In this document: positions 4,231-8,713 of the stretch, in pieces | Layout: every line of letters starts with the position of its first letter | Position numbering within the stretch: the first letter of the stretch is position 1 | From: an uncultured Clostridium sp. | GTDB lineage: Bacteria > Bacillota > Clostridia > Peptostreptococcales > Peptostreptococcaceae | DNA length: 10,839 nucleotides | Assembly: GCA_900550335.1 (NCBI GenBank) | Contig: URRU01000049.1 | Span: 1 to 10,839, forward strand | Reading direction: 5' to 3' | Translations under genes and position numbers: made by a program | The notes under the pieces: generated by a model | Database searches by the model: none | Told to the model about the DNA's origin: nothing | Seen by the model: the letters and a program-made list of their open reading frames with translations, nothing else

Positions 4231-4253
4231 CGCTTAATGAAAGGATTTATGTG

Positions 4254-5084
4254 ATGAGTTCAATAAAAGAAAAAATAATTGCAAATTTCGATTCATTTTC
4301 AAAGAACGAAAAAAGAATCGCTACTTTTATAATCGATAATTATAGTACTATATCACACTACAATGGAAATCAGATAGCAGAAAACGCAGAAACTAGTAAG
4401 GCTACTCTAGTAAGATTTAGCCAGAAGATAGGATATAAAGGTTTTATAGAATTAAAGAGAGATATAAACGATGAACAATTATCGACTATTAAACACAATC
4501 CTTATGAGACGTTTTTACCTACGCCTTGTACGGATTCTATCTTTTCAAATCTTATCAATGATATAAAAAATTTTGAAAAGATATTACCTCCAAATAAAAT
4601 CAAAAAAATTGTTAAGTATATAGCAAACGCTTCTACAGTCTATTTAATAGGTTTTGGTTCGGACTCTATAGCTTTAAAGTATCTATATAATTATCTTCCT
4701 ATATGCGGTATAAAATGCATTTATTCTGATGAACAGGGAGTTAGTTTGAGAGAAAGATTACTTTCACTTAACAAGCACGATTTGGTTATAATGTCAAACT
4801 TCTCTGATATGGAGGACGACGACTACATGGTTGCACGTTATGCAAAAAAGGTAGGAGCAAAGTTTGTTTCTATGACTAATTCAGATATAGTAGGTACTTC
4901 TCTAAATGCCGATGTATACGTTATAACTAAGGAATCTGCAGAAACATTCTACAATTCACCAATTCTGTCTATTCTTTTATGTAATATTATACTATCTGAA
5001 TTGAGACATACATACACTGAAAGAATAGAATCTGAGTTAAAAAAGTACAATGATGCTATAGAATTTATGAAAAATAGTTATTAA
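4254..5084 (+). CDS. RpiR/MurR-family transcriptional regulator
   Basis: A DNA-binding regulator of the RpiR family. Residues 1-75 form the helix-turn-helix domain with the family pattern FSKNEKRIATFIIDN, then ETSKATLVRFSQKIGYKGFIELK containing the recognition helix. Residues about 110-245 form the SIS sugar-isomerase-like domain, starting with a VYLIGFGSDSIA strand-turn-helix and including a DLVIMSNFS strand; such domains usually sense a phosphorylated sugar or related metabolite. The length (276 residues) is normal. ATG 4254 is preferred over the adjacent in-frame GTG 4251 because AAAGGA (4240-4245) then has 8-base rather than 5-base spacing; the difference is one residue. A palindrome over its own promoter suggests autoregulation. 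The M20 gene begins 59 bases later with no terminator between, so the regulator probably controls that amidohydrolase. The effector cannot be read from the sequence. Confidence 0.9.
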   Translation: MSSIKEKIIANFDSFSKNEKRIATFIIDNYSTISHYNGNQIAENAETSKATLVRFSQKIGYKGFIELKRDINDEQLSTIKHNPYETFLPTPCTDSIFSNLINDIKNFEKILPPNKIKKIVKYIANASTVYLIGFGSDSIALKYLYNYLPICGIKCIYSDEQGVSLRERLLSLNKHDLVIMSNFSDMEDDDYMVARYAKKVGAKFVSMTNSDIVGTSLNADVYVITKESAETFYNSPILSILLCNIILSELRHTYTERIESELKKYNDAIEFMKNSY

Positions 5085-5143
5085 AATAGAAGTAAGTATT
5101 AAATTGTAGTAAAAATTATCAATTAGAAAGGAATAGTTTAAAA

Positions 5144-6346
5144 ATGAGCGATTTTAAAAATAAGATTTGTTTACTAGCAGATGAATACCAAAGCAGTTTT
5201 GAATCGATGTCAACATATTTATTCGACAATCCTGAGCTTGGAGGAGAGGAATTTTTATCAGCAAAGTGTATTGTTGATATGCTAAAAAAACATAATTTTG
5301 TTGTAAATGAACCTTATAAAACTCTTCCAACAGCAGTTGTCGCATCTTATATAAACGATCCGTCTTATGAAAATTACGCATTCATCGCCGAATACGATGC
5401 ACTTCCAGGTTATGGTGACGATAAATGTACAAATGCACATGCATGTGGACATAACTGGATAGCAGCTACAATGACCGGATGTGCTGTTGTGCTTTCTAAA
5501 ATATCAAAAGAACTTGGTATAAATGTACTTTTGATAGGTACACCTGCAGAGGAAACTTTTGGTGCTAAATACGATATGATAAACTTAGGATCTTTTGACA
5601 GTGTAGATTATGCATTTCAGGCTCATTTAGATGCACATAGCAACATGTATGTGCATAATTTAGCTATGAATTCGATTGAGTTTGAATTTAGAGGTCTTGC
5701 ATCACACGCTTCTCAAGCTCCAGACAAGGGGGTAAACGCACTTGATGCAGTTATTTCAATGTTTGTAAATATAGGACTTCTTAGACAGCAGCTACCTCCT
5801 ACATCAAAAGTGCATGGTATAGTAAGCAATGGTGGTTCTGCTCCAAATATAATACCTGATTTGGCAGCATGTCAGTTTAGTATTAGAGAAAAAAACAAGG
5901 CATCACTTAAAGTGCTAAAAGATAAAATAGTGAACATTGCAAATGCGGCTGCTCTTAGCACAGGATGTACTTTAGAATATAAATTAATAGAAAATCCATT
6001 TGACGACAGCGTACACATAGATAGCATGATAAAGGCTACAGAGGATAATTTCAAATTATATGGTATGGATAATTTTTTAGATAAAGACAATACACTTCCT
6101 GCTGGCTCTTCAGATATAGGAAATGTAAGCTACATCTGCCCTACTATATACGCCGAAATAGCATTAGACTCACCAGAGCCAATGATGCTACATACTGAAA
6201 AAGCACTTGGACTTGTAAATTCTAAGTATGCTTACGACAAAATGAACTCTGTAATAAAAGCCTTCTGCTCAACTATTGTAGACATATCTCAAAACAAAGA
6301 ACTTGCAGAAAAAATAAAATCAGAATTCAAAGAAAAGACAATCTAA
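5144..6346 (+). CDS. M20-family amidohydrolase (AbgB/PM20D2-like)
   Basis: A 400-residue cytosolic metallopeptidase-fold amidohydrolase of the M20D type. Members cleave N-acyl or amide bonds, for example p-aminobenzoyl-glutamate (AbgB), N-acyl amino acids or beta-alanyl dipeptides (PM20D2). The core is visible: AEYDALPGYG (82-91), the metal site AHACGHN (98-104), GTPAEE (132-137) with the catalytic and ligand glutamates, the dimerisation or lid domain entered at GLASHAS (184-190) and spanning to about 300, SSDIGNVS (322-329), and a late His350 that would be the distal metal ligand. The AHACGHN form, with Asn in place of the common Asp after GH, and the DALPG motif point to the AbgB/PM20D2 branch rather than to succinyl-diaminopimelate or hippurate hydrolases. 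AGAAAGGA (5125-5132) serves ATG 5144. It follows the RpiR gene in the same direction. No transporter is nearby, so the substrate is unassigned. Confidence 0.88.
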   Translation: MSDFKNKICLLADEYQSSFESMSTYLFDNPELGGEEFLSAKCIVDMLKKHNFVVNEPYKTLPTAVVASYINDPSYENYAFIAEYDALPGYGDDKCTNAHACGHNWIAATMTGCAVVLSKISKELGINVLLIGTPAEETFGAKYDMINLGSFDSVDYAFQAHLDAHSNMYVHNLAMNSIEFEFRGLASHASQAPDKGVNALDAVISMFVNIGLLRQQLPPTSKVHGIVSNGGSAPNIIPDLAACQFSIREKNKASLKVLKDKIVNIANAAALSTGCTLEYKLIENPFDDSVHIDSMIKATEDNFKLYGMDNFLDKDNTLPAGSSDIGNVSYICPTIYAEIALDSPEPMMLHTEKALGLVNSKYAYDKMNSVIKAFCSTIVDISQNKELAEKIKSEFKEKTI

Positions 6347-6354
6347 CAAAGTAT

Positions 6355-6490
6355 AAAAAAAGACAAGAGTGTATAACTACTCTAAAGCGACAATACTGAA
6401 AACGCCCCATACCTATAAATGTGTTACATAATAGGATGGGGCGCTGAAGCCTGAAGCAAAGAGCAGTTATACTCTTGTCTTTACTTTTTT
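6355..6490. terminator. large nested inverted repeat acting as bidirectional terminator; possible structured RNA
   Basis: Outer arms at 6359-6383 and 6460-6482 pair for 23 positions, with a 2-base bulge and a single mismatch. Inside is a second, GC-rich stem (6403-6416 with 6431-6443, one bulged base) capped by a 14-base loop. Asymmetric internal loops of 19 and 16 bases separate the two stems, and the right one contains a tandem CTGAAGC. Beyond the outer stem the minus strand reads an unbroken T run (plus A 6355-6361). The plus strand reads TTT, two other bases and T6 (6485-6490), so both convergent transcripts could terminate here. The one outer mismatch is A-C on the plus strand but G-U on the minus strand, favouring folding of the lar transcript. 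The arm reaches into the larE stop codon. I do not recognise the family. Confidence 0.75.
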
Positions 6491-7299
6491 ATATGTATAT
6501 CCATACTTCCAGACCTAAATCCTTCTAGGTCTAGTGTTATATAATCGTATCCAAATTCTTTTAATTTCTCAACGACTTCTTCTTTCTTTTCTAAAAGCAT
6601 TATCATTTCATTTTTATCTACTTCTATCCTAGCAATATCCTCATGAACTCTTATTCTTACATTATAAAAACCTAAGTCTCTAAGCCATTTTTCAGCTTCC
6701 TCAACCTTTTGAATACTTTCATAATCTAGTATTGTTCCATAAGGGAATCTAGTAGCCATACATGGTGTAGACGGTCTATTAGATACAGATACTCCAAGTT
6801 CTGCGGCAAGCTTTCTAACTTCTTCCTTTGTAAATCCAGAATCAGCTAGTGGGCTATTTATCCCAAGTTCTCTTATTGCTTTTATCCCTGGTCTATATAC
6901 ATGTAAATCATCTTCATTTGTACCTTCCACTACCTGTTTTACACCAAGTTCTTCTGCATATCTCTGTAATTTTTCAAAAATACTTTTTTTACAAAGATAG
7001 CATCTATTAACAGGATTATCCTCTATTCCAGCTTCTTTAAGCTCATCTATTGATATTATTTTATGCTCTACACCCATTTCGTCAGCTACTCTCCGTGAAA
7101 TTTCTAAATCTTTCATCGGATGTATCTTTGTGTGTACTGTTACCGCATAGACTTTTTTACCTGTCTTTTTAGTTGACTTTGAGAATAATTTTAATAGAAG
7201 GCTGCTGTCTACACCTCCAGAAAATGCAAGTACAACATCTTCCTGAGATAACTTATCTACTTCTTCTAAAAGTTTTATCTTTTTTTCTTCATAACTCAT
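6481..7299 (-). CDS. larE: LarE, ATP-dependent sulfur insertase for NPN cofactor
   Basis: LarE adenylates the two pyridine carboxylates of the LarB product and replaces oxygen by sulfur, giving the dithio precursor of the nickel-pincer nucleotide. The N-terminal PP-loop (FSGGVDSS, residues 26-33) binds ATP. The protein has only three cysteines: Cys100 and Cys103 in NRCYLCKK, and Cys180 in NRPSTPCMATRF. Cys180 aligns with the sulfur-donor cysteine of the Lactobacillus plantarum enzyme. That enzyme lacks the CxxC pair and sacrifices its cysteine, whereas LarE proteins with three conserved cysteines (Thermotoga maritima, Methanococcus maripaludis) hold a [4Fe-4S] cluster. This protein therefore probably belongs to the cluster-containing, non-sacrificial class. 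It is 272 residues, a normal length. It starts 4 bases after the larC stop, with its GAGGAG site inside the end of larC, indicating translational coupling. It is the last gene of the operon. Confidence 0.95.
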   Translation of the reverse strand: MSYEEKKIKLLEEVDKLSQEDVVLAFSGGVDSSLLLKLFSKSTKKTGKKVYAVTVHTKIHPMKDLEISRRVADEMGVEHKIISIDELKEAGIEDNPVNRCYLCKKSIFEKLQRYAEELGVKQVVEGTNEDDLHVYRPGIKAIRELGINSPLADSGFTKEEVRKLAAELGVSVSNRPSTPCMATRFPYGTILDYESIQKVEEAEKWLRDLGFYNVRIRVHEDIARIEVDKNEMIMLLEKKEEVVEKLKEFGYDYITLDLEGFRSGSMDIHIKK

Positions 7300-7303
7300 C
7301 GTA

Positions 7304-8713
7304 TTACTTGCACTCCTCGATTATTTGACGGTATACATCCTGCCAAGTTCTACCAGTTTCTTTGCATATTCTCGCTATGCTGTCGTGTTCTGGATATATT
7401 CTTTCACCTGATGGAAGTCCACAAATTTTTATCTGCACTTTTCCCATAGATGTTTCTCTCATTTCAGTTCTTCTTTCTAAAATTTTTCTATCCATGTACT
7501 GTATTCTTATACCTATACTTGTTGTATCTTCAAATATTATTCTCTGTAATTCGTCCATTTTGTCTTCTTTACAGATAACATTTAGCTGATACCCAGGTCT
7601 ATTTTTCTTCATAAAAACAGGCATATAGTGTACATCTCTTGCACCTGCATCCATTAATTTCTGCATTACGTATCCAAGTGCTTCTCCTGTACAGTCATCT
7701 ATATTAGTTTCCATTTTTACTATTTTATCTTTTTCTATTTCAGTTTCTTCCTCTTCTATTATCATAGATCTAAGAAGACTAGGTCTTTCGTAATTTCTCT
7801 TACCTGCACCTATACCAGTTTTAACTACTCTAAATCTTTCTGGTAGATTTTTATCAGTACGTATTGCAGCTGCGATTGCTGCACCTGTTGGAGTTACAAA
7901 TTCTCCCTGTACACTAGTTATACTAAGAGTTAGATTTTCTGCATTTACTATATTTAAAACTGCTGGCACTGGAACTGGAAGCACACCATGCTGGCATCTA
8001 ACTGTTCCAACCCCTTCGTATAATGCAGGGATTATAACTTCTTCTATACCTAAATTATCTATACATACAGCTGCTGCAACTATATCTACTATAGAGTCTA
8101 CAGCTCCAACCTCATGGAAGTGAACTTCTGTTTTTGGTTTTCCATGTGCTTTAGCTTCTGCATCTGCAAGTATATCAAATATTTTATTCGCTATTTTTTT
8201 TGCATTTTCTGTTATTTCACTGCTATTTATTATATGCTGAATTTCGATAAGTCCAACATGTTCATGACTATGTCCGTGGCTGTGACCGTGATTGTGATCA
8301 TGGTTATGTTCATGACAATGATTGTGATCGTGATTATGCTCATGGCTATGTTCATGATCGTGATGGTCATGGTCATGGCTGTGGTCATGATCGTGGTGGT
8401 CGTGGTCATGATTATGCTCATGGCTGTGGTCATGATCGTGATGGTCATGGTCGTGTTTATAATCATTAGAATGTAGATACTCCATATCATGGTCGTGGTT
8501 ATCTACATCTAATACAACAGAAAAATCAAGTGCATCTAATCCTGATTTTACAACTCTGCTTGTCTTTATTTCAAATTTATCCTTGATTGATTCAAGGCTT
8601 TTTAAAGATTTTTCAAGTACTTCTAAATCAGCCCCTAAATCTAAAAGAGAGGCTACAAACATATCTCCACTAATTCCAGAATAGCATTCTAAGTATAATT
8701 TTTTCTTACTCAT
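7304..8713 (-). CDS. larC: LarC, CTP-dependent nickel insertase with giant His/Asp tract
   Basis: LarC (formerly UPF0272/DUF111) uses CTP to insert nickel into the dithio-pyridinium nucleotide, completing the NPN cofactor. Family blocks are in order: LYLECYSGISGDMFVASLL (6-24), EVHFHEVGAVDSIVDIV (196-212), GEFVTPTGAAIAAAI (270-284) and the C-terminal catalytic half opening with METNIDDCTGEALG (334-347), then MKKNRPGYQLNVIC (368-381). In L. plantarum the two halves are joined by a programmed frameshift; here they are one uninterrupted frame. Between residues 73 and 152 lies an exceptional metal-binding tract with 35 His among residues 87-152, alternating with Asp, Glu, Asn and Ser. It probably stores or hands over nickel. 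The start ATG 8713 has AGGAG 9 bases upstream and overlaps the end of larB by 8 bases (ATGAGTAA). Confidence 0.96.
   Translation of the reverse strand: MSKKKLYLECYSGISGDMFVASLLDLGADLEVLEKSLKSLESIKDKFEIKTSRVVKSGLDALDFSVVLDVDNHDHDMEYLHSNDYKHDHDHHDHDHSHEHNHDHDHHDHDHSHDHDHHDHEHSHEHNHDHNHCHEHNHDHNHGHSHGHSHEHVGLIEIQHIINSSEITENAKKIANKIFDILADAEAKAHGKPKTEVHFHEVGAVDSIVDIVAAAVCIDNLGIEEVIIPALYEGVGTVRCQHGVLPVPVPAVLNIVNAENLTLSITSVQGEFVTPTGAAIAAAIRTDKNLPERFRVVKTGIGAGKRNYERPSLLRSMIIEEEETEIEKDKIVKMETNIDDCTGEALGYVMQKLMDAGARDVHYMPVFMKKNRPGYQLNVICKEDKMDELQRIIFEDTTSIGIRIQYMDRKILERRTEMRETSMGKVQIKICGLPSGERIYPEHDSIARICKETGRTWQDVYRQIIEECK
8258..8455 (-). repeat. in-frame repeats encoding the LarC histidine tract
   Basis: This is internal to larC. 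The unit HHDHxHSHxH occurs at residues 91-100, 106-115 and 117-126, and a 10-residue unit HEHNHDHNH(C/G) is repeated in tandem at 124-133 and 134-143 (offset by position in the tract). At DNA level a 23-bp exact repeat occurs at 8373-8395 and 8418-8440, 45 bp apart. Exact repeats a multiple of three apart imply recent in-frame duplication or slippage, so the tract length may vary between strains. Confidence 0.85.

Follow-up and report, generated by a model that had tools for sequence, protein, structure and literature searches.

ERIC, BOX and Correia elements represent the miniature inverted-repeat element and stem-loop sequence families, the members of which have terminal or stem sequence in common. 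In T7-type RNase III processing hairpins, a helix is followed by an asymmetric internal loop and a second helix. REP and REPIN sequences are described as many extragenic palindromic copies per genome, which can form hairpins in single-stranded DNA or mRNA (PMC3116915), and stem-loop sequence families as dispersed structured intergenic repeats of about 100–400 bp (PMC2267715); going by these descriptions, dispersed palindromic repeats are a known kind. Quasipalindromes undergo template switching, presented as a process that makes imperfect palindromes more perfect (PMC7202029). The hairpin found at the end of larE in the window, i.e. the whole stretch of 10,839 nt analyzed here, is one member of an apparently undescribed, lineage-specific family of structured gene-end elements. 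For an invariant asymmetric loop in gene-end hairpins whose arms are rewritten copy by copy, no description was found in searches of one open-access library, which is no proof that none exists.

The stops of the convergent M20-family ORF and larE are separated by 134 nt, nearly all of which form one hairpin (see the table). A preliminary description of this junction had reported a large two-tier structure with a 23-position outer stem, a 13-bp inner stem and a 14-base loop in about 124 bp, and all of these dimensions hold on a check of the letters. The outer arms face each other over 23 positions with a 2-nt bulge and one odd pair, G-U in larE-sense RNA and A-C in RNA of the opposite strand, while the inner stem comprises 13 pairs and one bulged base. 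Folding confirmed the structure: the larE strand reached -60.2 kcal/mol (z -9.9) and the opposite strand -50.0 kcal/mol (z -7.3), and for neither was any of 200 shuffles as stable. As had also been claimed, the T-run is unbroken on the larE side alone; the T-runs of the other side are split, the longer one lying at 6485-6490. The window hairpin has the stable stem followed by a U-tract that defines an intrinsic terminator. No Rfam family reached its gathering score in the window, where a single match beside the element was at chance level (E 3.5), and none matched at E<=1 in the loci of 16 relatives, in agreement with the earlier remark that it could be matched to no familiar riboswitch or RNA family.

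Table. Features of the larE junction in the window (minus strand = larE sense)
Feature	Position	Strand	Basis or remark
M20-family amidohydrolase/peptidase ORF	5144..6346	+	convergent neighbour; stop 6344-6346; PF01546, PF07687 and TIGR01891 above cut-offs
larE, gene preceding the element	6481..7299	-	stop 6481-6483; TIGR00268 LarE, 295 bits, cut-off 150
Whole hairpin element	6359..6482	- (larE sense)	fold; match of model R1 at 6361-6478, E 1e-32, the window copy being among the 30 sequences used to build R1
Outer stem P1, 5' arm in larE sense	6460..6482	-	overlaps the final two bases of the larE stop codon
Outer stem P1, 3' arm in larE sense	6359..6383	-	2-nt bulge
Internal loop, conserved 5' strand	6446..6456	-	CUUCAGGCUUC in the window; CUCCAGGCUUC in most relatives
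Internal loop, conserved 3' strand	6388..6399	-	UCAGUAUUGUCG in the window; UGCAG(A/U)AUUGUCG in many relatives
Inner stem P2, 5' side in larE sense	6431..6443	-	fold and alignment
Inner stem P2, 3' side in larE sense	6403..6416	-	fold and alignment
Apical loop, 14 nt, with GUAACACAUUU	6417..6430	-	common to one family subtype, replaced in others
T-tract at/after the outer stem end, terminator-like	6355..6361	-	direct reading; A-run on the + strand

LarE led to a Peptacetobacter MAG (L001, 81% identity) and from there to 71 genomes of the same family, which were searched for relatives of the hairpin. One of them, G033 (2.5 Mb), holds close matches to three of the 11 main ORFs of the window (87, 89 and 97% identity) in one region of its examined part, and for this reason we place the window in a close relative of G033. 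The 136-bp query gave 13 places in G033 among the matches listed, at 76-87% identity (12 of 52 candidates scored; two places are both strands of one copy), and only short weak matches in three other family genomes. The pattern GGGCGCTTGCAGNATTGTCGCT, with up to 3 mismatches allowed, was found at 30 places in G033 and nowhere in the other 70 family genomes (reversed control 0). The covariance model R1 detected at least 50 copies in G033 (51 of 1267 candidates scored) and two places in G001, reading as one locus at two contig ends (51 of 834 candidates scored); one weak match in G050 (L108, E 0.0021 / 0.037, 67 nt, middle mostly missing) was not counted. Exact CTCCAGGCTTC words numbered 64 in G033 and CCAGGCTTC-N38-66-ATTGTCG matched there 56 times, each with a reversed control of 0 and no occurrence in G001 or G034. 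A pattern missing the common GCAGATTGTCG form was left out (26 matches in G033, 3 in G034, reversed control 2 in G033). Evenly spaced samples of G033 covering 400 kb contained 16 model matches, from which the genome total is extrapolated at roughly 100 copies. The search among relatives called for by the preliminary description found dozens of copies in the genome of one close relative.

A loose core pattern yielded 65 cores in the examined stretches of G033. Core patterns served to gather this set, which accounts for part of its core conservation: exact CTCCAGGCTTC is carried by 56 of 65 copies, and 62 end in ATTGTCG. The tandem CTGAAGC pointed out earlier is present in the window (at 6444 and 6451) but looks incidental, since the window reads CTTCAGGCTTC where those 56 relatives have CTCCAGGCTTC. 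Starting from inverted repeats instead is a fairer check of core conservation, but a small one: 178 sampled gaps held eight long repeats, seven of which carry the core or a variant (five by string, two by eye). The eighth, in L214 (18781-19186), is a 27-bp AT-rich perfect palindrome without the core.

Exact patterns were further searched at the level of the order (393 genomes) and of the class (391 genomes), with G033 as the sole convincing carrier. One order genome with a single word and seven class genomes with one or two words each look like chance hits; these seven are among 390 other Clostridia genomes, in which the reversed-pattern control also matches twice. The same holds for the viral contigs, where exact words of the core occur in 12 and 12 stretches (short form 0). 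R1 gave no match on 12 of 12 contigs of one viral set, on 3 of 12 of the other, or on one locus from each of the seven Clostridia genomes (a second locus, L203, being left out), and the 5' word was absent from the surroundings of the match in 13 of 13 sequences, namely 12 viral contigs and the G129 locus. A phage or plasmid origin was also considered and rejected, with no plasmid match and just two 21-base matches in Vibrio phages.

In the aligned copies, two strands of one asymmetric internal loop are nearly invariant, 5′ CUCCAGGCUUC and 3′ UGCAG(A/U)AUUGUCG, the latter often one base shorter (UGCAGAUUGUCG). The sizes of 19 and 16 bases first given for the internal loops of the window are correct, but the consensus has pairs inside them (C-G, CAG/UUG and CU/AG). 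Lower helix, inner helix and apical loop each exist in several unrelated versions across copies, and a short form has its inner part reduced to about GCAAUCRAGUUGC. Because the loop is nearly invariant against the turnover of everything around it, a common partner is implied.

The helices covary strongly. A model-based alignment of 55 copies, fitted to the structure, shows changes on both sides at 31 of 33 pairs (0.629 vs 0.171 shuffled, 0/500; slid <=0.129). A MAFFT alignment of 30 copies, from which the structure itself had been chosen, gave 24 of 33 both-sided pairs (0.418 vs 0.142 shuffled, 0/500; slid <=0.170). Interchanges occur inside the core as well (AGCG/CGCU, GACG/CGUC and GGCG/CGCC). 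Outward from the core, pairing is poor over about 6 nt, reaches 94-98% at positions 8-18 and 88-97% at 19-24, then falls to about 80%. Arm length has a median of 69 nt, against 0 for mismatched arm pairs; since arms are common within groups of copies, 25 nt is still attained by 23 of the 300 mismatched pairs. With its conserved loop, covarying helices and sense orientation to the gene, the family has the properties of a cis-regulatory or protein-binding RNA, the binding being predicted.

The G-U compatibility of the odd outer pair in the larE sense alone had been taken, together with the unbroken T-run, as a hint of an RNA at work in the lar transcript. The observation is right, but as a general argument it is weak: over the 65 copies, arm mismatches comprise 142 G-U, 98 A-C and 394 transversions, and strand-biased mutation could be an alternative source of the G-U excess. 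Since G-U only mildly exceeds A-C and transversions outnumber both together, these counts do not show strong selection for sense-RNA pairing across whole arms.

Relative to the element, the neighbours of the 65 copies are ++ in 34, +- in 26, -- in 5 and -+ in none. Sixty of 65 copies lie downstream of a same-strand gene, where about 0.50 is expected from 348 G033 neighbour pairs (-- 160, ++ 105, -+ 43, +- 40); genes were called here with a simple ORF rule, terminators with a simple criterion of hairpin plus T. With origin and terminus of G033 placed roughly from GC skew, 18 of the 23 copies that oppose replication still follow their gene, and transcription rather than replication thus seems to set the direction. 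Together with the covariation, this position supports the proposal of a structured 3'-end element in the larE sense that is more than a terminator, and we favour an RNA reading because of gene-end location and sense direction. Both of these, as well as shared loop sequences, would also suit a family of 3'UTR-derived trans-acting small RNAs. We regard that as very unlikely, since the subtypes have in common only the sequence of an internal loop that is itself partly paired; their arms and apical loops vary, and no common unpaired seed is evident.

Of the 60 same-strand copies, 20 begin fewer than 25 nt after the stop codon, like the window copy, and the remaining 40 lie further away. A predicted terminator separates stop codon and element in 26 of these 40 (26/60 overall); at those sites the core would therefore be transcribed only on read-through, which counts against the RNA reading. 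Such copies, already provided with a terminator upstream, also weigh against the view of an ordinary intrinsic terminator with decorative extra length. That account is decidedly unlikely in our judgement, although the stem stands directly at the larE stop codon with a T-tract behind it and larE in both G034 and G001 ends in a short plain terminator-like hairpin. Termination does not need an invariant two-strand internal loop, and dozens of copies keep the loop with arms of unrelated sequence; moreover, the T-run directly after P1 is absent in many copies, so that the terminator layout is not family-wide. As a sufficient account, a plain terminator was rejected on core conservation and on the copies beyond other terminators.

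By inspection, arms are common within groups of copies and unrelated between groups, and chimeric and truncated copies exist. Whole arms shared in this way, along with the chimeric and truncated copies, point to spread of the unit itself. Individual cases, at L072 1430-1546, L082 ~1480-1530, L145 above 1627 (-) and L138 566-639, include a chimera whose arms come from two groups and do not pair, copies reduced to one half and a short form in which the inner hairpin is minimal. The 3′ arm reads, in examples, as an inverted and decayed version of the terminator region of the gene, and the outer arms of many copies resemble the terminator of their own gene in inverted form. Hairpins of the 5′ flank were stronger than those of the inverted 3′ flank in 51 of 65 copies (p 3e-7), flanks that may include gene sequence.

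These features would also fit a DNA-level mobile fold-back element, MITE-like, whose loop would be a recombinase or transposase site on an extruded or single-stranded hairpin and whose gene-end bias would come from insertion beside terminators. The copies are dispersed, numerous and non-coding, as in MITEs, and that part of the earlier suggestion of a MITE-like insertion stands. The shared-arm groups, the chimeric and half copies, the bare excess of G-U over A-C and the 26 copies beyond a predicted terminator all fit a DNA element, and the DNA strand folds too (z -9.2). So does the concentration round the terminus that GC skew suggests: between 0.5 and 1.5 Mb lie 51 of the 64 words, a pile-up that is possibly a mere accumulation zone. 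Per 252 kb, the word counts in G033 run 1, 3, 10, 12, 12, 17, 3, 3, 3 and 0 (n=64).

On the other hand, target duplications, the mark of classic MITEs, were not found in 65 copies, the longest common word at arm ends averaging 4.51 vs 4.34 +- 0.12 shuffled. Copies do not share terminal inverted repeats, their arms being unrelated between groups with no sequence common to all. A classic MITE was rejected on these two grounds. In a search for two enzyme families, G033 had no Y1_Tnp (RAYT) match, whereas four of four other genomes searched have one, and no RVT_1 match, found in two of the four (distant RT families were outside the search). Mobilization by RAYT and copying by reverse transcription were set aside for lack of these matches. 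Direction follows the gene even against replication, and one copy, at gpsA, occupies one place in two genomes. Taking both sides together, a DNA-level element is possible but somewhat unlikely.

The gpsA (glycerol-3-phosphate dehydrogenase) copy is found at the same place in G033 and G001, and for this reason seems older than the split of the two. Between them, the gene end is 82% identical, P1 92% and the core 81%; in G001, where no other copy was detected, otherwise invariant letters of the core have changed. Where the family is rare, the core thus seems to drift while the stem stays.

At the larE junction of G001 and G034, a short plain terminator-like hairpin follows larE instead. In G034 (L024), larE and rpiR face each other directly and no M20 match separates them, unlike in the window (4251-6346), where the M20 ORF and the hairpin lie between the two. 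The G034 junction is not a clean empty site, because the M20 match is absent too; since the window has both ORF and hairpin and G034 neither, gene gain or loss has taken place at the junction. No larE match was found in G033 at E<=0.001. Beside larE in the window, larC (7304-8713; TIGR00299 and NF052512 above cut-off) bears a long His/Asp-rich insertion, perhaps metal-binding. Codon 69 of larE is the single CGG among the 3306 codons of the window main ORFs. For Peptacetobacter, it is predicted that CGG is read as glutamine (PMC8629427); the larE codon was discarded as a clue to the code, the alignment at the site being uninformative.

Taken together, we see about an even chance that the unit is an RNA element of gene ends, bound at its loop by a putative trans-acting factor and doubling as a terminator at larE. 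Its working form would be the RNA, as part of the upstream gene's transcript: a lower helix of about 17 bp would expose the internal loop for a single trans-acting factor (RNA-binding protein or ribonuclease), which may process or protect the 3′ end of the transcript. Where a copy lies directly at a stop codon, as at larE, the outer stem and T-tract would double as an intrinsic terminator. In other copies, the long outer arms would be inverted duplications of the terminator region of their own gene, probably made by fold-back template switching at the hairpin.

On a further reading, the loop would be a self-copying device, at which a stalled nascent strand or RNA end folds back and copies the upstream terminator region, building inverted-duplicate arms around an unchanging core; such a unit, selfish or kept by the host, would owe its pairing to copying, without an RVT_1- or Y1-type enzyme. 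We consider this quite improbable. The nearly constant two-strand loop and the rewritten helices at dozens of gene ends point to one putative partner acting at many loci in a gut clostridial lineage, and the inverted-terminator arms would preserve a natural trace of fold-back copying on a bacterial chromosome.

How does the family compare with the described systems? Like intrinsic terminators, it has an outer stem and T-tract, at larE and in those other copies that lie directly at a stop codon; unlike them, it has a conserved internal loop, arms of median 69 nt and many copies beyond a separate predicted terminator. With REP/REPIN, as described, it shares the many extragenic copies able to form hairpins; these however conserve a short palindrome and go with RAYT, whereas the stems in G033 are not conserved between groups, the arms vary around a conserved central asymmetric loop and there is no Y1_Tnp match. 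Similarly to miniature inverted-repeat and stem-loop families, going by their published outline, it consists of dispersed structured intergenic repeats, but its stems vary almost wholly between groups with pairing kept, and target duplications were not found. The helix-loop-helix layout resembles that of T7-type RNase III hairpins. Finally, template switching as outlined for quasipalindromes could account for arms that stay paired while their sequence changes; one would expect it to erase an asymmetric loop as well, and in this family the loop is what is conserved.
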